Part shown: positions 1,919 through 55,800 of the stretch, piece by piece
Layout of the letters: every line of letters starts with the position of its first letter
How positions within the stretch are numbered: the stretch's first letter is position 1
Assembly: GCA_035236585.1 (NCBI GenBank)
Contig: CP141139.1
Location: forward strand, 40,557,217-40,621,216
DNA: 64,000 bases
Source: Warburgia ugandensis
Lineage: Eukaryota > Streptophyta > Magnoliopsida > Canellales > Canellaceae
Direction: 5' to 3'
The notes under the pieces: generated by a model
What the model saw: the letters and a program-made list of their open reading frames with translations, nothing else
Told to the model about the DNA's origin: nothing
Database searches by the model: none
Program-made: the position numbers and the translations under genes

Positions 1919-4900
1919 CTGCAGAAACATAGACAACAGGTAAGATTTGTGCCATTGTCAGACAACTTAAAACACGAGAAAGTTAAAGTTTGAAACTGGA
2001 GAAGAAGATTCAGTCAACTCAGTCCTACCAAAAAAAGGAAAGATAGAAGAAGAGTCATTATTTCCTACAAAGTGTTCAGCTTGGAAAGATTAAGCATTTG
2101 TACCTCGAGATATCTCATCAGGAAGGGAGTAGGTTTCATCCCCAGCCAAATTAAAAGAAGCCTCATGGTTGGTATAGGAAGTTGCTCCACAGCTAGCTCT
2201 TACCCGTTTCTTTTTCTTCTTTGAGGTCTTCCTAAGTAAAGGAAGTGCTTGTGGAAGCAGTACTGTCATCATGGATTTTGCTAAATCCTGCCCAACAGAA
2301 TCAGATCCGCCTCTCTGCGAACTTGAATTTGAAGTACCAGATGAGCCTATTTCCTCTTCTGGGTGCAGATCAGTCATGCTTCCTTCACAAAGAACTGTAT
2401 CCAGTGCACGTGTAAAAGGGCAGGGTATCTCTTGTGGAATTGTACCTGGAGCACTAACAGCTTGCCAAGGACATTGCGCACATTCCCTTTTCAACTTATT
2501 AGAAGGATCCTGGCCTACAAGCTGAGAATCATCTGTTTTTAAAGTTCCTGGCAATTGATTAGCTCTGATAAGCTCATCTTCGTTGCAATGATTCATGAGG
2601 AATTAGTAATTGAGAAGACCAATAGCAATTGACAAGGTGGTAGGAGTACCTTGTAGAGTATCCCACGCATCAGGAATGTAGCAATTCAAATCCTTCCCAG
2701 AAACAAACCCCGTCAAAGTTAGGATTTCTTGATGACTGCCTTTTGCTGTCTTTGAGGACTCATCTCCTTCAAAATTGACATTGGATGACCTAGTAAGCTG
2801 TAACAATTTTTCTTTTGTTGAGAAATGAGGAAGATTAACTGCGACCGCATTAAGGTATCTGAGATTCAATCCACGAGAAATAATGCTCTACATTTATCAG
2901 GATTAGAAATCAAACCACAAGTATGATGGAACTACCAACAAGATGATAAAAAATAAATAAGCACAGGACTGCAAAGAAAGAAGCCAATTGTTCACTAAGG
3001 CATTTTAGTCTTTTGCAGTCCAAGATATATATGATTGTATAGCATCATTTCTATGACATAAGAATTAAATATTCTCTCAACATGAAACTTCTATCTCCCT
3101 TTCACTATTCTCCCATTTAATCTTTAATTACTGAAGATCTTAGCTGGTACTAGAACCTGGGTAACTTCACAACAAGGGAAGGCCCAAACCTCTTAATAGA
3201 ATCTAGCCAATTGTTAATCAAGGCCATTTCAGTCTTTTGTAGTGCTGGATATATATGATTGTATTGCATCCTTTTTATGACCATTCTATTCATATGAAGC
3301 TTCTGTCTCCCATAAACTCTTCTCCCATTTTTTTTATTATTGAAGATCTTAGATGGCACTAGAGCCTTGATAACTTTGCATCAAGGGACAGGATCTAACC
3401 TCTTGGCAGTATACTTTCATTTTTTCTCTTGACTCTTCCTTTCTTCCTTCATCACACAGAATCTAGCTCTCTTCCTTTGTACAACCATCAAAACCATAGA
3501 CTTTTCAAAAGACTTCTTTTTCTTCATTCCCAATCAACCTCCATTTTAGTCCATCTTTTCCCCCCTTACCTGTTTATCCATAGAAGTCCAATATGTATGG
3601 TATGCTTTGTTTAGATGATATTATCATAATTGGCAACAATATACTGCAATTTTGAGGGTGAACAATTTCCTAAAGATGACTTTTGAAGTATCTCGGGGAT
3701 CTCTGCTAACCTTTTATTATTTTTGGTACTAGCAGAGAATTTCTGTTACTTGCTGTTGAAACTAAAAGAACCATAGAAGGAATGATGTAGACATAAATGA
3801 TGTTTAGAACATCTCCCTAGGATCAAAATTATTTGCAACATTGTCGAACACCTGCAAATTATAATGAAAAGCCAAGATGCAAGGAAGGAGAAAAGGTTAA
3901 AGATGCTCAAACCTATTTTTGTCAACTAAAAGCACAATTGCACTTTACATTCACTGAAACTATTAGTAGGTTCTATTTCATGATTAAGCAGATGTTTACA
4001 TCACAGAGCAGCAAGATGCAACAAATAGTTGCTAGGTCCAATGTAGAGCCAGAGCAAAGGGCCATGGCATTGACATCTGCAAAACTGACAAGGAGAGACA
4101 CTACATGAGATTATATCTGAGAACATTCAAATGTTTTTTGTGTCAACATAATTGTCACGAAACCCAATGAATCATGACAGAACCAAGCATACCAATATCA
4201 ACTACACACTTAGTCAAAGGTGGGGAGTGGTGAGATTTTCCTTGGCATGTCTATTAGTCACACTCAGGTCCTTAGACATATTCACCAAAGAATTTGGTGC
4301 AGATGACTATATATGCTCGATCAGTTGGTCATCAAGTTGATTATCAGTGTGAGGGAGAGTGCCAAGAGACGCCGACTACCCCTTATAAAGAGCATCTCAA
4401 GTCCTTCCCAACCAAGCATATATGTGACTTTATTGCATTATTTTGAAACATAGGCAATCAACTACTTTCTTCTCACCCAAATTTCCTCCTTTGTCTTCTA
4501 AATATGTAATCAGTAAAAAAAATTTAGACAAGTGCTAAGCCAATATCTAACGGCAAGATGGATTTCATAGTTGATAGGGTAACATTCTATCTAAAAATCA
4601 TTGTTAGAAACAGTCGCAATTTGCAGCTAATTTTGGAGTTGGCAAAACCCTAAGGATAATGTGAGATGCAGCAGAAAAGGATAAATTGGCAGTCAATCAT
4701 GCCAAGTCTACTTTTTGAGTTTGATTAGCTAAAGTTAAAAAAAAAAAAAAAAAAAAAAATTTCAATTCTGGTAAACCACTGATTCGTCTAGTGTCTACAA
4801 GATATGATTCAAGTACTATTGATTTTACTAGATCAAAAATTGATAATGCTTTAAAAATTCATAGATACAATAGTGACTCTTCTTTTCGACTATAAACAAT

Positions 4901-7900
4901 GGAATCGTCCATTGCACTATATAAAAAATAATCAATTTCAAAATGCTATCCGAAATGAAATGTCACAATATTTTTTTAACACATGTCTAAGTGGTCGTAA
5001 TGCCAAAGGAATCATTACCGTAGGGCACAGAGGGGGAGATCATAACCGTCTATACCAGCTGCATAGGCCCTTCCCACATGTCACAAATGGCCCACAAAGA
5101 AGAAGAATCCTAGAACAAAATGAGAGGTAGCTAACCAACTTCTAAGAGAGACATGGTTGATTCCTAATAGATTGACCCCAAAATAACATATCCAAATTAT
5201 AAGAAATCCCATAGAAGCCACAATTGCCGAATTCACACCTTGCAAACTGTAACTCCGCCAATGCCTGTCCCAAGCTGGGATGAAAAAGGAGGAGGGTCTT
5301 GTGTCAGGTGCAACCCTTGTGTCAAGTGCTAGCCGGCAAAGGAGAAGCTGAAGATGATTTTGTTATTTCTTTCCTGCTTATAAGGAAGAAATGAAAATCA
5401 TCTTCAGCTTTTTAAAACTATGGCAACCCTAATATGACATGAATCGAAAATTGATATTCCCTCAAGCTAGGGCATTCCCCGGATCCCAGGTGCTGTGAAA
5501 AATGGGCAAGGGTTGCTAAGGCATTCCCCCAGAAGCAGGGTGCTACATCGGATCCCAGGTGTAGTGAAAAATGGGCAAGGGCTGCTAGAGTGTCCCCTCA
5601 AAAGCGATGCGCTGCATCAAAACCCAGGTGCAGTGGTAAGTGGACATGGGTTCATGCCATAGAGATCGAGAAAAGCACTGGTAAATAAGATATCTCTAGA
5701 GCATAAGATTCATATTGTCACATGGAATATAGGGACATTGACAGGTAAGAGTTTGGAGTTAATAGACACGCTGAAACATAAGAGAGTCAACATCGCTTGT
5801 ATCCAAGAAACCAAGTGAAAAGGAGCTAAAGCTAAAGAAATCGACAGGTATAAATTATGGTATGTAGGAAAGGATAATAGCATAAATAGAGTAAGAATAA
5901 TAGTGGATAAAGAATTAAAGGATAAAGTTATCGGCGTTAAAAGAATTAGTGATAGAATTATAATAAGAAAACTTATTTTAAGAGAACAAATCTTAAATGT
6001 TATAAGTGCATACGGACTACAAGTAGGATTAGAAGATATAATCAAGAGACAGTTTTGGGAAGATATGAAGAGAGTCATGCAAGAAATTCCCAACACTGAG
6101 GGGATATTTATAGGAGCAAACTTAAATGGCCGTGTGGGAAAAGAAAAGGAAGGATATGATGGAATACACGGAAGGTATGGTATAGGTGAACGAAATGAAA
6201 TGGGGCAAACTATCCTCGATTTTACTTTGTCATATAACCTAGCCATTGCAAATACACTCTTTAAGAAGAGGAATGAACACTTAATAACCTTTAAAAGTGG
6301 ACTTTATAAAAGCCAAATAGACTTCTTTCTATTTAGGAATATTGAACGATCAATGTGTAAGGATTGTAAGGTAATACCCAGTGAGAGTTTAATCTCACAA
6401 TATAGGTTAATGGTTATGGATATCCATATCAAAAGATGTAGGAAAAGAAATGAACTTAATAGGTATCCAAAAACTAAGTGGTGGAACTTAAAAGGAGAGA
6501 AAATAACTTCATTCAAAAATAAGTTGATGGTAGAAGGAAACTAAAAGTATGAAACAAAAGTAAATACCATGTGGATTAATATTGCTGAGTCTATTAAGAA
6601 AGTGGCAAAAGATGTCTTAGGACTATCTAAAGGTAAAAGCCAATTAATAAGGGAAATATGGTGGTAGAGTGAAACAATGCAAAATGTTATTAATGAAAAA
6701 CGGATGCGTTTTAAAGCATGGCATAAGACTAAAAATAATGAAAACTATGAACAATATAAGAATGCTAAAAAGGATGCTAAAAGAATAATAAGTGAGGCTA
6801 AACTTAAGGCATGTGATGAGCTATATAATAGACTAGGAACAAGAGAAGGTGAGAAAGATGTGTTTAAACTTGCAAAAGTAAGAGAACAAAAGGGTAAGGA
6901 CTTAGATCATGTTAGGTGCATCAGAAGTAATGATCAAAGGGTATTACTCAAAGATAATGAGATTAAACAAAGGTGGGAGACATACTTTCAAAACTTGTTA
7001 AATGATAATGGCTCTAAGAATATAGGGATTGCAAATAGTATAAACCTAAATAACATTGGATGTTATAGATATGAACGTAGGATTAGAATACTTGAAGTGA
7101 AAGAGGCCTTGAAAAAGATAAAATCAGGAAAGTCCATGGGTCCTGATGGTATACCAATAGAAATTTGGAAGCATATGGGAGACATTGGGGTAGTTTGGTT
7201 AACTAAGTTGTTTAACAAGATTATAAAATCAAAAAAAAATGTCAGATGAGTGGAGGAAACGCTCTATTGTACCAATTTATAAGAATAAAGGAGACATACA
7301 GAGCTGTGCTAATTATCAAGGGATCAAACTTATAAGCCACACTATGAAACTTTTTGAAATAGTGATTGAGAAGAGGCTATGGCATGAGACAAGTGTATCG
7401 GAAAATCAGTTTGGTTTCATGCCTATGAGGTCTACCATGGAAGCTATTTTCTTACTAAGACAATTGGTAGAGAAATATAGGGGGAGGAGGAAAGACCTCC
7501 ATATGGTCTTTATCGACTTAGAGAAAGCTTATAATAGAGTCCACTAGAGAGTTAATATTAGACATAATTAAAGATATGTATGAGGGAGCGGTAACAAATG
7601 TTAAGACCGCTAGTGGTGAGACTAGTAATTTTCCTGTCACTGTAGGATTGCACCAAGGATCGACATTGAGTCCATACCTTTTTACATTAGTTATAGATGA
7701 GTTAACAAAACATCTGCACGAGGAGATTCCTTAGTGCATGCTATTTGCAAATGATATAGTCTTAATTGATGAGACAATGGAGGGTATAAACACAAAGCTA
7801 GAGTTATAGAGAGGAGCATTAGAATCTAAAGGATTTAAAATCAGCAGAACTAAGACAGAATATATAGAATACAATTTTAGCAAGGAGAGTAGGAGTAGAA

Positions 7901-10900
7901 CACCAATCAAGATTGATAACCAAGAAGTCCCTGCAAAAGACCACTTTCGGTACTTAGGATCAATGATTCCTAAGAGTGGAGAGATTGAGAGGGAGGTTAC
8001 CCACAGAATCCAAGCAAGTTGGAACAAATGGAGATGTGCATCTAGAGTTTTGTGTGATCGACGAGTACCACTCAAGCTAAAATGAAAATTCTATAGGATG
8101 GCCATAAGGCCAGCCATACTCTATGGATCAGACTGTTGGGCGGCTAAGAAACATCATGCTCGTAAGATGAGCATCGCAGAAATGAGGATATTAAGATGGA
8201 TGAGTGGTAAGACAAAAAAGGATAGAATTAAAAATGAAAATATTAGAAGAAATCTAGGGGTAGCACCAATAGGTAACAAGATGAGGGAAACTAGACTTAG
8301 ATGATTTGGACATGTCCAAAGGAGACCGAAAACGGCACCAGTTAGGAGTGAGGCAATGCAAGTAGAAGGTTTTAAAAGGGCAAGGGAAAGGCCCAAAAGA
8401 ACGTCGATAGAAGTGGGTGAGGAAAAATTTAAAAACTTTGGGAATAAATGAAGCCATGGTACTTAATAGAGAGAAATGAGGGAATAAGATTCATGTGGCC
8501 GACCCCTAATTGGGATAAGGTCTTGATGATGATAATGATGATGACACCTTGCAAACTGTGATTTGTTCTTGTATGTAAATAAATTGCAAATATGGTCCAA
8601 GTAATAAATGCCCAAGTTTCCTTGATTCCTCTTCAGAATCTAAAACTTTGAAATCCGAGTTCTTCTCCACGCACCTCCTAAAAAATGGGTTCATCATTCC
8701 AGAGATATCAAAAGAAAAAAAAAATTTGTTTTGTCTATTCTGTCCAAGAAAAGTGCTACTGTAAAAAAATATGCTTGACGTGCCCAATTGTGCGAAATTT
8801 TTTAATAAGATCATGCTAATTTGAAATCCGATGGTGTTTTTCGTACAATTAAATAAATAAGTAATAAGAAGAAGAGGTGTTAAGCTTTTTATCATCCTAG
8901 AGTTGAGCTATTTTTCCACAGGACCTCCCCTACAATGTCACTGCAGTAGAGTTTAACCACCAAGTTCGAGAAAACTTACAGTTCATACCAAATATTCAAA
9001 CCTACCAAAGCCTAAGCATTGTGCAAGTACCAAAGTGGAAAAGGTGAACGGACATTGGCTGTCAATAGTGTAGACATGGATTTAAAAGTCAAGACAGTGA
9101 CAACATTTGTGAGGATAGCATTTCAAAAGATTCAAAGGTATAGAAGGAACAGAAAGGACAAGAAGACCACTTGATCTAGTAACAGCAAAAGCTTTAGTCA
9201 AATAGCATTAGACCTCCATAATTAATCAACATTGATGCTCATTCCCATATGGAAGTCACCAGTTACTCTGAACATATGGAACATAAACAGGCACATATGC
9301 CTTCCCGTATTGACAAGACAATAATAGAAGTTTGTTTGCCTTCTTACAAACAGTACACGACGCATATAGGCAAGGCAATGAAATGAATATGGGAGGACAG
9401 ATGAAGGTAGCATGACTTTAAGAAAAGAAAAAATAACCTATAAAATGCATTTAGAATAAACCTGATCAGCTTTTCTAGCAACTGAGTTCTTTGCATCATT
9501 CATTAGATCATATGTCCGCAATCTTTTAGCATCGGTTCCACCAATAGCATTCCTAGTTGCCTTTTTGTGTTTCCTACTTCTCTTCCCAGTGCTCTGTTGC
9601 TTGCCCAAGTAAGGGAGCAAATCAGGATATGTATATGAGTTGGGACAAGGTATCTCATCCTCTAGCCTAGAGGCACCATTACAGAAATTAGTGGACATCA
9701 AACTCTGTTCTGCAATTCCATTGACATTTGCAACTAGCTCACGCAGCAGCCGCTGGACGAGCAGATTCCTGAACCCAAAAAGCTGCATGCCACCATAGAA
9801 AAGAAACTACAGTTAGCAAGTTGATTACCAGGATTTGAAGCGAATCTATCTCACTACTTTTGTTCTGACCATCATATAAATGACAGTTACAAAATAAGGA
9901 TAAGAATGACGCCACTCAAACAAATCCATCATAATTGCCAAAGAAACTGAGATTTGTTATTTATACATATAGTTTAGGAAGAAAACTCCAGGGCAATGTT
10001 CCACATAGAAAATCAATACCACCAGAACAAATGAGTAAACCAGCAAGAAAAATCTCTCTGAACAGCCTAGCAACATTCAGTAGATGGTAAACATGTCAAG
10101 AAACAAGTCTCTTACTTCTACAGAGAGCCCAAGAGAGATGATCCACCATAAGAGCTCAAGGTTAAAATTAGCTAGTATAGCTGCGAATCCTGATGAGGTA
10201 CACTAATTCTTAACATGGATAAAGATAAGATAGATGTAATTAGAATGCTGAAGTTAAGACTATAAAGTATCAGAAAACATTGCTGTAATGTTTTGACAAT
10301 CTCAAATTAACCAAACTTGGCTATGGAACACAGTTGAAAATTTTCAAAAAGAAAAAAAGGTAACTAGTGAAGAATGTATTCAAAGAAGTGTTCAAACTAC
10401 AAACTAAAACCACCTAAGTTTAGTATAGTAAGCACAATCATTACCTACATCAGAAAATAAGTATTACCTCCCTAAACTGCTAATTGTTTCAAGTCAAACT
10501 AATTATATCTCATACAGGTTAACCTATTTTATTATCGTGGGATCAAACTAATAAGTCATACCATGAAACTTTGGGAAAGAGTCATTGAGAAGAGGCTCCG
10601 ATATGAGACGAGCATATCAAAGAATCAGTTTGGTTTCATGCTTGACAGGTCTACCATGGAAGCTATTTTCCTCCTTAGACAATTGATGAAGAAATATAGG
10701 GAGAGAAGGAAAGACCTCCACATGGTCTTATTGACTTAGAAAAAGCTTATGATAGAGTTCCTGGAGAGTTACTATGGTGGGTATTGGGCGAGAAAGGGGT
10801 TTCACAAGGATACATAGACACAATCAAGGATATGTATGAAGTAGTGACAAATGTTAGGACCATTAGAGAAGAAACCGATGATTTCCCCATCACCATAGGA

Positions 10901-13900
10901 TTGCACCAAGGATAGCATCGAGCCCATACCTCTTCACATTAGTTATGGATGAGTTCACGAAACATGTGCACGACAAGATTCCATGGTGCATGTTATTTGC
11001 AGATGGCATAGTTTTATTTGATAAAACAAGGAAGGGTGTAACACAATGCTAGAGTCGTAGAGAGATGCTATAGAGTCTAAAGGATTTAAAATTAGCCGAA
11101 CCAAGACAAAATAAGGAATGCAGTTTTAGCAAGGAGAGGAGTGGGAGGGAGGCACCAGCAAAGATTGATGACCAAGAAGTACCCCAAAAAGACCACATTC
11201 AATATTTGGGATCAATAATTCATGAGATTTAGAGGGATGTTACCCAAAGAATCTAGGTAGGTTGGAACAAATGGAGATGTACAACTGAAGTTTTTTATGA
11301 TCGACAGGTGTCACTCAAACTGAAAGGAAAATTCTATAGGACGGGTCAAAGGCTGGCTATGCCCTATAAATTATAGTGTTAGGCTGCTAAAGAACAACAT
11401 GTACATAGGATGAGCGTCGCCGAAATGAGAACATTAACATGAATGAATGGCAAGACAAGAAAGGATAAAATTAGAAATGAAAACATTGGAAGAAACTTAG
11501 GAGTAGCACCAATACGTAACAAGATGAGGGAGGGTAGAGTTAAATGGTTTCGACACATCCAATGGGGACTAAAAATGGCACCGTTAGGAGTCAATCCAAG
11601 TTGAAGGCTCTAAAAGGCCAAGGAAAAGGCCCAAAAGGACGTGATCAGAAGTGGTGAGAAAATATTCAAAAGCTCTTGGACTTAATGAAACAATGTCACT
11701 TGATAGAGGTGAATGGAAGAACAAGATTCGTGTAGCCAACCCTTAATCAGGATAAGGCTTTGACGATGACGATGATGACAGGTTAACATAATTTAGCAAT
11801 GTTTGCTCAATGTAGGTTTGAAGGAACACTAAACTCTCTTGCCCACCATATGCATGAGCATGAGCACAGGGCCAAGTAGCCACCTAACTACTGATTTTGT
11901 GCTAAATAAAATCCTCACCTTGATCAAACAGATGTTTCTCTATAAAAGGGCAGCCAAGTGGACAAATCTCTCGCATATGCAAGGTCTGGGAAGGGGCAGA
12001 CCACAGATGATCTATAGTACGCAGCCTTACCTTGCACTTTTGCAAGAGGCTGTTTCCACGCCTTTGCTAGGTTTGAAAAATAATAATTCATGTTTGTATT
12101 TTCTTGATCAATTTAAGATGGCTGTCAAGACAGTCTATCAAGCATATCTCATCATAAAAAATGAAATCGGTTAGATGATATTAACAGCCAACCCATGAAA
12201 CCTGTCAAATTTACTTCCAATAACGAAGAACATAGAACGTTCCCCGAGAAGATTTTCCCAGTCAAAACCTGTTTGACTGCCACCTGAACAGTACCTCTTT
12301 GCAGATGGTGACATATTTATCACAACAGCAAGCATCTCTCACAAGATAATAGCCAATGGAAAATCACTCCCCCAGCCACAATATGCAATTGAAAATTACA
12401 AACTGGAAGGTACAGGACGTATATTTTTTGTGCCAAGAAAGGAGAGACATACTAGACGAATGGATTGAATAAAACCCAAAGCATAATGCAGATAAGCAGA
12501 AACACTCTTCCCATATGCAATATAGGCCATAGGCATACCACAATTTGTAAATACACTCATAGAAGCATTTCCCTTTTCCTAGAAAACAGGTTTTACACCA
12601 AATTTCTTTATATTATAGCAGATGATGGCTCATAGGGCAAGGATGGTGCATGCATAAGCACTACAGAAAGCAAGCATCTGACCAAGTGGTAAAGGTACGA
12701 GCAAGGGATTCAACTCCCTCACCTCCACTCCAAGAATGATCAGATATATATACCATATCAGAATTTTATGACAATATTTAAACAACTGTTAATAAAACTA
12801 AATCCCCCAAGTATGAGGTGAAACATCTAGTCAACAACTTTGTTTGTGTTTTAATAATATAAATTCATAGGAGTGAACACTTGCCTCAACCCCATCTATC
12901 TTGCAAGAATATCTCTTCCCATGCCACACCTTCACCCGAGGACCACTTTTCTTCTGAAAAATCTCCCAGGCAATATCTGGAGTCTGCCCAGAACATGATT
13001 CTCCATCCATAGAAGTGATCTACAAATTAAAGGTTGGTCCAGGTTTAAAAGAAAGGAATCAGAGAGATGGTGAACAAACTACTCTGAAATACGTAAAGTT
13101 TACGAATTGCAGACACAAACATAATGGGATAAAGTGGTTAAACCATTAAAACTGTAAAACCAATGCTTTGCATGTGAAAGGTAGTTAAGCGTCAATATAT
13201 ACCACAAAGAGAGGCCCTTTAAGACCTTCTCGAACTTCCATCCTGTAAGTATTCCCAGCATGAGTTCGAACAGCATTATAACCAATTGGATAAGGGTACC
13301 GATCCTTCCTCTGCAGATAGCATATAGCCAAGTCAAACACTAGCTTCATAAAAGATAGCACAAATAGGATATCCACCACATTAACAAATCAGATCAGCAA
13401 TTGCATGTAAATCATATATAACCTTTGCAATAATCTTAGAGGTCATGCAAGCTTAGGGAATAGTATTAGATGCTTCTAACACACCAACTAGCCAGTTCAA
13501 GATCTAAAAGAATTATGGAACATGCATCGCCCACAGCCCACCCAGAAACTCAATAGGCATTACCCAATATTAACCCATGAAATACTAAAATAAGAACTTT
13601 TCTTGTTCAGAACAAAGATTAAATACTTTGAAAAAATTTAGAACAAGAAGAAATAAAATGGGATGAATTGATATTGAAAAGTCTACTTGATAACACAAAA
13701 TACCTATCTATTAACTGTTAGTATGTCAAAATACGCATTAGGAGCACAGTGGGGACAGACTTTTCCTCTATTGCTTTCAAGAATCCAGTGTATTTCTCTG
13801 GCCATACATGTTACCCCAAAAAAAAAAAAAGATTCAAGCAATGCTAGATAAACCCAACAATTTGCAACAATACAAGACCAATTCGCTTTAGCTGTTTCTG

Positions 13901-17915: not shown

Positions 17916-17980
17916 AGTATGTATGTATGTATGTATGTATGTATGTATGTATGTATGTATGTATGTATGTATGTATGTAT
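17916..17980. repeat. (GTAT)n microsatellite
   Basis: About 16 uninterrupted GTAT units. Confidence 0.97.
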
Positions 17981-20454
17981 AACTTAGATTAGGGCAATGA
18001 TATATGCAATCCTTTGTGTTTCAACATGATTCCCTCATTAAATTGTAAGAACAACTATAACTATTCTAAGTGCGGTTAGTTTTCTAAACAATCAAACTGT
18101 CTGAAAAGTTGATCTCTACTTAAAAGGGCCATGCTTAAGAGTTCTAATCTATTGAATGATCCTAGCAACTTTTGCTTTTAGTTGTAGAATCAATGGTAAA
18201 ACTTTTGCCGTCCATTTTACATCTCAAGAAAATAATAATTACAATCGTCCAATGGATACGATTTTCAAAATATGGCCCATCTAAGTCAAGGGCAACATTT
18301 TTAACAATTCAGATCTTTAAAAATCTAAGTCTAGTAGATTTATAGATGTTCTTACAAATTAATGAGGGTCTCATGAGAAAAAGCAAGGACGCATATGTCA
18401 ATAGCCTTTAGATTATCGAGGAAAGTAGGCCTACTTGTATTTATGCCTGTAGCTTTTTTCTGTAGGTGCACATGCACCAAATAATTGCTCTTAAATAATC
18501 ACCTTTTGCTAAAAATTAATGACTTTTTTATGGTAATAGATATACACAATTCTATAGCTGTATCCTAATCTTAGGCATGCAGTACTAATGGGTAGGATGA
18601 ATTAAATTAAAAAACTTATCTATGGATTGCTAAAATCCTATGTTGAATAGATTTGGTAGCAAATGAATTTTGTGATTTCCATAGTCATACCCTCGTTATC
18701 TATTAATTATGATAAGGAATATGGCTATCAATCAACTTATAATGTGATTCCCACGACTCTAGTCATTTACTTTTTCAATGAGATGTCAAGGGTCAATACC
18801 ATATAGGTCAGGCACTCATCTATAATAGATTGTCATTGGAAAGCAATAGTGCCTAAAATATTGAGCTGGACAAAATCCATTTGACATAGAAAATTTGGGG
18901 ATTTTGGTTTTTATTTTATTTTTCCTTGGAAGGCAATAAATATCAAGGATATTGTAGTGGAATATTTGGTAATATCATTTGTAAGCAAGCCATGAGAAGC
19001 ATTTACATAGGGGTCATGTGATTGTAAAGCACATTTGAAGAAGGCACATTTTTCATTTTTTCATGACTAGCATTCATCATTCATTTGAGCACATTTTCCA
19101 ATTCCAAATTCAAATATTATAACATTCTTCATTAATGATGTTATGAAATCACTTAACTTCTCATGACAACTATAACCAACTGATCCCACAAAATCTAGTG
19201 CACAGGAAGCCTCTCATTGTCTCTAAGTGTATCACCAATTCCATTGGCCTATGTTTTCTTGTTACCCATCAAGTTGTCGACAGACTTGAACCTACAAGTT
19301 CTAGATTATGAAAGGAGGAACCAAAGTAACCATTTTGCAAAAAAGAAAGAAAACCTCAAGACACATTTTCCTTCAAGTTGTTTTTGGTTTCTTTAGCATG
19401 GTTTAAGAAAAATAAAACTTTACAAATTGTTAAACCAACAAATTTTTCAAAAGTTTCCAATCATTAACCACCGTTTGTGAAAATATCTTAATGAGAGACA
19501 CTAGGACCACAAAGAACATATTATGCATTCAAGGTTTTGGTTTAAGATGGCAACTACCCATGTGCAACAAAGGTGCAAGAAGGGCCTCTCCTGTTCTTGG
19601 TCACTAGTTCGGCAAACCCTTTTATTTGTGATGGAAATCAATCTTTTTATTGGGAAATGTGTAAAGTAAGCTCTTTTAAGACAATCTTAAAGGAAACCAT
19701 TTAAATATATAAATTAAGATGGTAGGATCAAACTAGCAACAAGACAACTAACAATATTTAAGGTAGTTGGTCAGAGACAACTTGCAATCTCCCTCTAGAA
19801 ATGCTTGGTCACAATTTCTTTCCTCTTTGGCTAGTAAATAGATTTGGGAATGTGTATGCATGATTTGCTAATTCTTCACTTCTAAAGAAAAAACTAGAGC
19901 AAGGCCCAATAATAATACAGTAAAGATGTAGTAGCTTGTCTTTACATGATAAATGCATATTCCAAGCTTTAAACATGAGTATAAAGGCTAGCATTTCTAA
20001 GATTAGCTCGTACAATTTCAAATAAGGGATTTATTAGACCAAAATCTTACATTTACATCTTAAAGATGTCATGACAAAATGCTTAACATTATTAGCATCC
20101 ACCATGAGTCACCTATATGGTTAGAAATAACAACTTTTTCATCTTCTCAAATGTTGATGTGGGTGAGATTAAAACTAAGGGTATTACAACTTACAAGTGG
20201 AGCTAGATGTTAGAAGTGTGTGCTTTGCAAATTGTTATACAATATTTAATGTAATGTTCTATTAATTATTTCATAGTAGGAATTTCATGATGAGGTGAGT
20301 GAGAATCATAGTGAAGGAAAAATGGAATTCTAGTTATTTGTAAACTTGAAAACAATCCTCGTGTGAGAATGAGAAAATCAATTTTGTAACACTGGTCAAA
20401 TGTGATGTAGATATTAGAAGGGGATAATCAATTCTCTATCATCTTAGGTATAAT
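17981..20454. other. no gene seen
   Basis: AT-rich intergenic DNA. A short stretch near 18262-18345 (ATGGCCCATCTAAGTCAAGG...) recurs near 56558-56640, so at least that part is a dispersed repeat. Nothing else recognised. Confidence 0.4.
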
Positions 20455-52286: not shown

Positions 52287-55224
52287 CATCATGATCATGA
52301 TCATCATCATCAAGACCTTATCCCAATTAGGGGTCGGCCACATGAATCTTATTCCTCCATTCCACTCTATTAAATACCATGTCTTCATTTAGTCCCAAAG
52401 TTTTTAAATCTTTCCTCACCACTTCTATCCACGTTCTTTTGGGCCTTCCCCTTGCCCTTTTAAAACTTTCTACTTGTATTGCCTCACTTCTTCTAACCGG
52501 TGCCGTTGTTGGTCTCCTTTGAACATGTCCAAACCATTTAAGTCTAGTCTCCCTCATCTTATTACCTATTGGTGCTATCCCTAAATTTCCTCCAATATTT
52601 TCATTTCGAATTCTATCTTTTCTTGTCTTACCACTCATCCATCTCAACATCCTCATTTCTGTGACGCTCATCCTATGAGTATGATGTTCCTTAACTGCCC
52701 AACATTCTGATCCATAGAGCATGGCTGGCCTTATGGCCATCCTATAGAATTTTCCTTTTAGTTTGAGTGGCACCTGTCGATCACACAAAACTCCAGATGC
52801 ACATCTCCATTTGTTCCAACCCGCTTGAATTCTCTGAATAACCTCCCTCTCAATCTCTCCACTCTCATGAATTATTGATCCAAAGTATCAAAAGTGGTCT
52901 TTGGCGGGGACTTCTTGGTTATCAATCTTGACTGGTATTTTGCTCCTACTCTCCTTGCTAAAATTACATTCCATATATTCTGTCTTAGTTCGACTAATTT
53001 TAAATCCTTCAAATTCTAATGCTTCTCTCCATAATCCTAGCTTTATATTTACACCCTCCCTTGTCTCATCAAGTAAGACTATATCATCTACAAATAACAT
53101 GCACCAGGGAATCTCCTCATGCAAATGTTTTGTTAACTCATCCATAACCAATGTGAAAAGGTATGGACTCAATGCCGATCCTTGGTGCAATCCTATAGTG
53201 ACAGGAAAATCACCAGTCACACCACTAGTGGTCTTAACATTTGTTACCGCTCCCTCATACATATCTTTAATTATGTCTATATATCCTTGCGAAACCCCTT
53301 TACCACCCAACACTCTTCATATTAACTCTCTAGGAACTCTATCATAAGCTTTCTCTAAATCAATAAAGACCATGTGGAGGTCTTTCCTCCTTTCTCTATA
53401 TTTCTCTACTAATTGTCTTAGTAAGAAAATAGCCTCCATGGTAGACCTCCCAGGCATGAAACCAAACTGATTCTCTGATACACTTGTTTCATGACGCAGC
53501 CTCTTCTCAATTACTCTTTCAAAAAGTTTCATAGTGTGGCTCATAAGTTTGATCCCTCTATAATTAGTGCAGCTCTGTATGTCTCCTTTATTCTTATAAA
53601 TTGGTACAATAGAACTTTTCCTCCACTCATCAGGCATTTTCTTTGATTTTATAATCTTGTTAAACAACTTGGTCAACCAAACTACCCCAATGTCTCCCAT
53701 ATGCTTTCAAACCTCTATTGGTATACCATCAGGCCCCATGGCCTTTCTTGATTTCATCTTTTTCAAGGCCTCTTTTACTTCAGGTATTCTAATCCTACGT
53801 TCATACCTATAATATCCAATGTTATTTTGATTTATAGTATTTTCAATCCCTATATTCTCAGGGCCATTGTCATTTAACAATTTTTGAAAGTATGTTTCCC
53901 ACCTTTGTTTGATCTCATCATCTTTGACTAATACCCTTTGATCCTCGCTTCTAATACACCTAACATGATCTAAGTCCTTACCCTTCTGTTCTCTTACTTT
54001 TGCAAGTTTAAACACATCTTTCTCACCTTCTCTTGTTCCTAGTCTATTGTAGAGCTCATCATATGCTTTAAGTTTATCCTCACTTACTATTCTCTTAGCA
54101 ACGTTTTTAGCATTCTTATATTGCTAATAGTTTTTATTATTTCTAATCTTCTGCCATGCTTTAAAACGCATCCGTTTTTCTTTAATAACTTTTTGAACTG
54201 TTTCACTCCACCACCATGTTTCCTTTCCTAATACCGCTTTACCTTTAGATACTCCTAAGACATCTTTTGCCACTTTCTTAATGCACTCAGCCATATTAAT
54301 CCACATGTATTTACTTCTGTTTCATAGGTTCACTTTCCTTCTACCATCAACTGATTTTTGAAGGAGGTTATTTTCTCTCCTTTTAAGTTCCACCACTTAG
54401 TTTTTGGGTGTGTATTAAGTTTAGTTCTTTTACTCCATCTTTTGATATGGATATCCATAACCATTAACCTATGTTGTGAGGTCAAACTCTCACCAGATAT
54501 CACTTACAATCCTTACATGTAGATTGTTCATTATTCCTAAGTAGAAAAAAGTCTATTTGGCTTTTATGAAGTCCACTTTTAAAGGTTATTAAATGTTCAT
54601 CCCTCTTCTTAAAGAGTGTATTTGCAATGGATAGGTTATATGACAAAGCAAAATCGAGGATATTCTCCCCCATCTCATTTCGTTCACCTATACCATATCC
54701 ACCGTGCATTCTATCATATCCTTCCTTATCTTTTCCTATATGGCTGTTTAAGTTTGCACCTATAAATATCCGCTCAGTGTTGGGAATTTCTTGCATGACT
54801 CCCTCCATATCTTCCCAAAACTGTTTCTTGATTATCTCTTGTAACCCTACTTGTGGTGCGTATGCACTTATAACATTTATAATTTGCTCTCCTAGAACAA
54901 TTATTATTATTATAATTCTATCGCTGATTCTTTTAACATCCACAACTTTATCCTTTAATTCCTTATCCACTATTATTCCTATGCCATTTCTGTTATTTTC
55001 CTTTCCTACGTACCATAATTTATACCCATCTATTTCTCTTGCTTTAGCCCCTTTCCACTTGGTTTCTTGGATACAAGCGATGTTGACTCTCCTACGTTTC
55101 ATCGTGTCTACTAACTCCAAACTCTTGCCAGTTAGTGTCCCTATATTCCACGTGGCGATACGAATCTTATGTTCTGGTCATACCCTATTTACTATTGCCT
55201 TTCTTGACCTCCATGGTATGAACC

Positions 55225-55440
55225 CATGTCCACTTTTCACTGCACCTGGGTTCTGATGCAGCGCGTCGCTTCCGAGGGGACGCTCTAGCAGCCCTTGCCC
55301 ATTTTTCACTACACCCGGGATCCGATGTAGCGCGTCGCTTCTGGGAGAACGCCCTAGCAGCCCTTGCCTATTTTTCACTACACCCGGGATCCAATGCAGC
55401 TTGTCGCTTATGGGGAACGCCCTAGCTTGAGGGAATGTCT
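55225..55440 (-). repeat. tandem ~72-bp repeats upstream of the RTE endonuclease
   Basis: Three units on the minus strand each encode a variant of SDALHxxPGxVKxGxG with a GLLxRxxxS link ([17 protein letters not shown] is one). The same array, with stops, is in copy 1 at 5462-5640. The array is open from 55453 to 55178 in this copy. Confidence 0.8.
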
Positions 55441-55482
55441 GTTTTCGATTCATATCATATTTGGGGTGCTGTATTTCTTAAA

Positions 55483-55712
55483 AGCTGAAGATGATTTTCA
55501 TTTCTTCCTTACAAACTAATATACATTCATTTGCAAGCAAAAAATAAATAACAAAACCATCTTCAGCTTCACCCTTGCCGGCTGGCTACCTGACACAAGG
55601 GTTGCCATATTTAAGAAGAGGGAGATGATTTTCATTTCTTCCTCACAAACTAATATACAAATGCATATTCATTTGTAAGAAAGAAATAACAAAATCATCT
55701 TCAACTTCTCCC
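55483..55712. repeat. duplicated inverted repeats in the RTE leader
   Basis: AAGCTGAAGATGATTTTCAT is mirrored by CAAAACCATCTTCAGCTTCA (55483-55576). A second, similar arm pair lies at 55616-55712. Copy 1 has a single pair (5350-5413) with 16-bp perfect arms. The RNA could fold into a hairpin. Confidence 0.7.
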
Positions 55713-55781
55713 CTGCCGGCTGGCACCTGACGCAGGACCCTCCTCCTTTTTCATCCTGGCTTGGGACCGTCATTGGTGGAG

Positions 55782-55800
55782 TTATTAAGGAGCTCAGCAT
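55782..55800. repeat. target-site duplication of RTE copy 3, right
   Basis: TTATTAAGGAGCTCAGCAT, the right-hand copy. Confidence 0.95.

Follow-up and report, generated by a model that had tools for sequence, protein, structure and literature searches.

Complex nuclear plastid DNA insertions (NUPTs), as far as they are described in PMC6215612, consist of several plastid fragments that differ in location and orientation, share one nuclear site and meet at blunt junctions or at junctions with 1–7 bp of micro-homology. These fragments are presumed to be fused to one another either ahead of break repair or in its course (Portugez, Martin, Hazkani-Covo 2018, PMC6215612). For retrotransposons of the RTE type, a single sentence in PMC7761336, marked "in preparation", states that truncated yet competent twister ribozymes are conserved at their 5' ends; no fuller later account of such ribozymes was found among the papers listed in searches of an open library. 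Here, a mosaic of plastid pieces interrupted by an RTE-like long interspersed nuclear element (LINE) was analyzed in Warburgia ugandensis. The analyzed stretch, hereafter the window, comprises 64,000 nucleotides (GCA_035236585.1, CP141139.1, positions 40,557,217 to 40,621,216), and all coordinates below are counted from its first base. The mosaic is very probably a complex NUPT, in which eight or more plastid fragments would have been end-joined into a nuclear break that later received the LINE.

The window is located on contig C14 (54.9 Mb) of a 1.12-Gb genome represented by 14 contigs, and its nuclear location is taken from this assembly. The plastome was represented by further plastid-like DNA from this genome, chiefly a large plastid-derived cluster on contig C6. 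The piece limits were obtained by aligning the joined flanks (minus the LINE and one copy of its target-site duplication) to the fetched copies, followed by realignment with 30 extra bases at each border; genes were named using profile models run on the translated reference DNA beside or under each piece. With the LINE removed, eight plastid pieces of 64–156 bp tile 901 bp and leave one base unplaced. Judging from their alignments (86–99% identity, E from 7e-21 to 1e-74), the matches are far beyond chance. The initial annotation had placed pieces of at least five plastid genes in less than 1 kb and listed ycf1, rpl2, psbC, ccsA, again ycf1, and rrn5; every one of these is present, and the list lacked a psaC spacer and psbB.

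At its left border the mosaic is preceded by an A-run followed by TT (4738–4761). The alignments begin between 4749 and 4762, and the A-tract is also present in other copies; the border is placed only approximately, since the plastid DNA ahead of piece 1 is also rich in A. Piece 1 (4762–4871, plus strand) is ndhE-psaC spacer, downstream of ndhG, and stops at the psaC start codon, with 90–95% identity to seven rows; psaC beside it on the reference is recognized by TIGR03048 (E 1.5e-50). The assignment of this first piece to ycf1, which had been thought to start at 4765, is ruled out, and ycf1 begins at 4871. Piece 2 (4871–4993, plus strand) is ycf1 in sense orientation (90–94% over 121–123 bp), whereas piece 6 (8626–8755, minus strand) is another part of ycf1 in antisense (91–96% in eight rows); the Pfam Ycf1 model matches the neighboring reference frames with E 1.1e-97 and 4.5e-80, respectively. 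Piece 3 (4993–5056, plus strand) corresponds to rpl2 in sense, with up to 94% identity over 64 bp and 24 other places in the genome. The RplB match on its reference is weak (E 4.2e-5, under the NCBIfam cut-off), although the frame looks like the beginning of L2. Piece 4 (about 5056–5160, minus strand) is psbC in antisense (86–91%, 17 other places), and the psbC model matches the window frame with E 2.4e-6.

Piece 5 is the 3' part of ccsA in antisense, divided by the LINE into 5160–5250 and 8560–8624 (both minus strand); the two halves produce a single 156-bp alignment with 97–99% identity. The CcsB model matches the window frame (E 1.3e-7), and the reference is also identified as ccsA by the CcsB/Cytochrom_C_asm profile models. 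One minus-strand frame of the window (5081–5362) matches first ccsA and then psbC, in both cases under the curated cut-offs because both pieces are short. A single base (8625) fits neither piece 5 nor piece 6. Piece 7 (8756–8845, plus strand) is psbB, encoding CP47, in sense (90–93%), and the reference open reading frame matches the PSII and CP47 models with E 2.9e-132 and 2.5e-142. Finally, piece 8 (8846–8971, minus strand) contains the 3' part of the plastid 5S rRNA gene and the adjoining spacer in antisense (90–94%), and RF00001 scores above gathering on three of its reference copies.

In plastomes, psaC, ccsA and ycf1 belong to the small single-copy region, rpl2 and rrn5 to the inverted repeat, and psbB and psbC to the large single-copy region. 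The mosaic joins these seven loci with pieces 1, 2, 3 and 7 in sense and pieces 4, 5, 6 and 8 in antisense orientation. Breakpoint mapping had been set beforehand as the test of the mosaic. With the same-genome plastid-like reference, it ruled out a single contiguous plastid stretch as the source and recovered the ycf1, psbC and ccsA matches.

The pieces abut. An overlap of 1 bp was found at the junctions of pieces 1/2, 2/3 and 4/5 (one psbC copy would allow 3 bp at the last of these), and an overlap of 0–7 bp, depending on the copy, at the rpl2/psbC junction of pieces 3/4. One extra base lies between pieces 5 and 6, and there is no overlap at the junctions of pieces 6/7, where one psbB copy would allow 2 bp, and 7/8. 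On both sides of every piece, the copies match the window up to the junction and are unrelated beyond it. In genome searches with the outer stretches of the block (40 scored matches of 109 candidates on the left, 40 of 114 on the right), the matches break off abruptly at positions that they have in common, and no scored match other than the window itself spans a whole piece-piece junction. The proposed end-to-end fusion of pieces from different plastome regions in mixed orientation is thus confirmed, with seven loci, four pieces in each orientation and overlaps mostly of 0–1 bp. As in complex NUPTs, at least two fragments occupy one locus, they come from different plastome places and orientations, and their junctions are blunt or micro-homologous (1–7 bp).

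Since the large C6 cluster shows that sizeable NUPTs exist in this genome, the mosaic could also be imagined as a large collinear NUPT scrambled in place later. Such an origin is highly improbable: pieces of distant plastid loci sit side by side within 901 bp, without remnants of other plastid DNA in between (plastid-like pieces cover all positions except one), and many independent precise deletions would be needed. The distant plastid origins, the mixed orientation and the abutting joins fit the joining of fragments before or during break repair, so that the pattern predicted in the initial annotation is supported; that the fragments were end-joined, and in one event at one break, we infer. 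At least eight plastid fragments of about 60–160 bp would have been ligated end to end into a nuclear double-strand break within an apparent intron.

The LINE (5251–8543, plus strand, 3293 bp) has broken frames and ends with a TGATGA-type repeat, on the basis of which we take it to belong to the RTE clade. A reverse transcriptase of the non-LTR (non-long terminal repeat) type is indicated by Pfam RVT_1 (E 3.1e-11 at 7227–7547, plus a match of 8.3e-7 just under the cut-off); the broken frames of this copy gave no Pfam match to an upstream endonuclease domain of the apurinic type. The LINE is flanked by an exact 16-bp repeat (5235–5250 and 8544–8559, plus strand), and this target-site duplication is ccsA sequence. 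With the LINE and one copy of the duplication taken out, the ccsA halves are continuous, exactly as had been noted from the sequence. The ccsA target duplication and the halves reading through it therefore show that the mosaic came first and the LINE second, and the order of events given in the initial annotation holds. The element would have entered the ccsA piece through target-primed reverse transcription, with duplication of the 16 bp.

Among the 40 scored of 22,184 candidate places in the genome, the best full-length relatives of the LINE are 86–89% identical. A second full-length copy is found within the window (52294–55783, minus strand); it is 86.7% identical to the first over 3.3 kb and has a 17-bp target duplication. 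A 5'-truncated, more distant copy is located at 10531–11778 (plus strand, 76% identity). In addition, the 5' part of the LINE contains a long near-perfect hairpin (5342–5413) with weak matches to several miRNA models, and this stretch (about 5342–5413) recurs inverted inside the LINE.

Both the mosaic and the LINE have accumulated changes of their own. Compared with the majority of the other copies, the window has 28 private positions among the 743 of seven pieces (20 transitions, including 14 G>A and 4 C>T, and 8 transversions; 14 further columns over all pieces were ambiguous), and private decay amounts to 2–6% per piece. In a three-way alignment with two relatives, the LINE has 152 private positions of 3200, versus 131 and 154 in the relatives, and the three branches are therefore about equal; 87 of the 152 changes are G>A or C>T. 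Mosaic and LINE would both have decayed after insertion, chiefly via these two substitutions. Decay of this kind also bears on the possibility that unrelated plastid-like reads or contigs were wrongly joined during assembly. Plastid DNA is plentiful in plant libraries, but plastid reads would not carry private changes in seven of eight pieces, a LINE with its target-site duplication sits inside the mosaic, and eight junctions between fragments of 64–156 bp are presumably finer than the scale on which contigs are joined by assemblers. An assembly artefact is accordingly considered very improbable.

Several points weigh against a complex NUPT formed in one old event. The references for the pieces are nuclear plastid-like copies of the same genome and not a true plastome; of the 200 kb taken from the C6 cluster, 30 kb read N, and psbC is missing there; and the mosaic is described from one genome assembly. 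Two rrn5 matches do not stop at the psbB junction but continue for 11 and 26 bases with 84–88% identity. A further point concerns the ccsA piece (5160–5250 plus 8560–8624), which is unchanged although its neighbors and the inner LINE show 4–5% change. It carries 0 private changes in 156 positions versus 28 in 743 elsewhere (Fisher p 0.009), where 6–7 changes would be expected at the LINE rate (P about 0.001–0.002), which is not what a single old event predicts.

These zero changes are what would be expected if the mosaic grew stepwise, with the ccsA piece joining a mosaic that already existed and the LINE arriving last; most of the divergence of the LINE would then belong to its source lineage. 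The ccsA piece was, however, singled out afterwards as one of eight. Heterogeneity over all eight pieces gives p 0.33 in simulation, and in 11% of the simulations one or more pieces with a length of at least 100 bp remain free of changes, so that the zero count is not significant as proof of a later event once the choice among eight is allowed for. The piece also has just one CpG and two CHG sites on the counted strand, the LINE branch is as long as those of its two relatives, and the LINE frames are broken. Stepwise growth is therefore regarded as unlikely, and chance is the simplest reading of the unchanged ccsA piece.

Tight mosaics recur in this genome. Among 42 other plastid-like loci, which were chosen as good matches to the window pieces and are not a random sample, seven (L004, L005, L055, L060, L070, L079 and L084) contain abutting non-collinear plastid-plastid joins within 10 bp; three (L053, L054 and L056) did not match the reference, since it lacks psbC. 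Positions 870–2814 of L005, on contig C1, form a tight mosaic of about ten pieces of 43–645 bp in 2 kb with junction overlaps of 0–12 bp. The pieces in the window are more uniform in length (mean 113, SD 28 bp) than random breakage would give, with p between 0.003 and 0.10 according to which minimum is assumed. Such short and similarly sized pieces could suggest templated patching of the polymerase-theta type, in which a broken end copied successive short plastid stretches and no free fragments were ligated. The overlaps at the junctions are, however, mostly 0–1 bp, where such copying is expected to leave microhomology, and a narrow size class as a general property of mosaics was rejected, since L005 with all pieces counted shows none (p 0.84–0.96). 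Templated patching is hence rather unlikely, if slightly less so than stepwise growth, and the end-joined complex NUPT is preferred.

At the front end of the LINE, the Rfam twister-P1 model revealed a feature that the initial annotation did not mention: a twister-P1-like core (5246–5302, plus strand, 36.4 bits), whose first five bases come from the ccsA target and whose predicted cut lies at 5250/5251. The E-value of the match is 2.7e-5 when 6 kb are searched and 2.9e-4 for 64 kb, and its score lies under the gathering score of 67.2, as does a similar match in the second full-length copy (55734–55788, minus strand, 29.9 bits). A search of the genome gave 62 scoring places, the best with 55.7 bits and none above gathering; matches below the cut-off also occur in 2 of 14 control genomes. 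RNA folding, performed without pseudoknots, gives the ribozyme no support (z -0.38). The two full-length copies in the window have target duplications of 16 and 17 bp, and each duplication stops immediately ahead of the first A, at the predicted scissile bond. Because the element ends coincide with the predicted cut, the 5' end of the LINE was probably set by twister-type ribozyme cleavage, which would have released an RNA beginning at the first base of the element.

Twister is described as cutting at a U-A step, with stem P1 dispensable for cleavage (PMC6154101). In a set of 20 twister places picked by the model, which share the core, T precedes the cut in 19. This could be taken as an argument against an element start at the A, and it was set aside as an effect of model selection; as the twister model rewards T at this position, a second set of copies was drawn without the pre-cut base. 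The core pattern used for it starts at the A after the cut and occurs 772 times in the genome (395 + 377), whereas the reversed control pattern occurs 0 times. The set comprises 40 of the first 42 places among the 772, two of which share a flank and may represent a duplication. In these 40 copies the pre-cut base is C in 12, T in 12, A in 8 and G in 8, and the upstream sequence is not conserved. Selection of flanks for their ability to complete stem P1 was rejected, because in the 40 copies 1.85 of 4 pairs form, little above chance (1.51 in nearby flank). The third base before the element is A in 24 of the 40 copies (L094–L133) versus about 36% in the vicinity (p 0.002, for one of 20 positions inspected), which perhaps represents a target-site preference.

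A wider proposal, to which we give about even credence, is that this high-copy LINE family carries just the downstream product of the twister, while the pre-cut base and the upstream strand of P1 come from the landing DNA. The landing site would then decide which daughter copies self-process their RNA, and the cut would fix the 5' end of each new full-length copy. The mosaic of the window may be one such landing, with ccsA providing the upstream strand of P1; this belongs to the same proposal and seems to us equally balanced. The LINE offers a link, open to testing, from a self-cleaving RNA to the precise 5' ends of hundreds of its copies, and its ribozyme-defined end is the part most deserving a bench test.

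As for the surroundings of the mosaic, minus-strand open frames bracket the block; they end at 9461 with GT and resume near 2888 after AG. Because AG and GT stand at the edges of these frames, the block is consistent with a location within an intron of about 6.6 kb in a putative minus-strand gene. No Pfam domains were found in the four minus-strand frames of this presumed host gene, and the right flank of the mosaic (8972–9463) matches itself alone in the genome search. A tRNA scan of the whole window found none. A weak match to the mir-297 model (17919–17983, plus strand, 42.9 bits versus a gathering score of 90) is probably a simple repeat.

Neither the mosaic nor the LINE end overturns present views. 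The mosaic is ordinary in kind and an unusually readable example of known processes: all joins are legible at single-base resolution and the later insertion provides a relative date, which makes the mosaic useful for understanding how organelle DNA is joined in break repair. It resembles the complex NUPTs described in PMC6215612 in its mixed-origin, mixed-orientation fragments with blunt or micro-homologous junctions at one site, and, as far as that description goes, differs in detail only, with eight short pieces in 0.9 kb and a datable LINE inside. It is likewise similar to the rearranged or mosaic NUPT clusters reported for Arabidopsis, rice, tobacco and Moringa (PMC7037861, PMC10789010, PMC3989485), which also contain short, tightly clustered fragments; the definitions of a cluster in these reports often allow gaps as large as 5 kb, whereas the pieces of the window abut. 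The twister-like core is of a known kind, since a shortened twister at the 5' end of RTE-like elements is already mentioned in PMC7761336. Beyond that sentence, the present data add the coincidence to the base of element end, duplication and predicted cut in two copies, and an unconserved pre-cut base in 40 more. Compared with the hepatitis delta virus-like (HDV-like) ribozymes of R2 and other non-LTR retrotransposons, as presented in PMC3774820, the twister-like core of this LINE represents a different ribozyme class.

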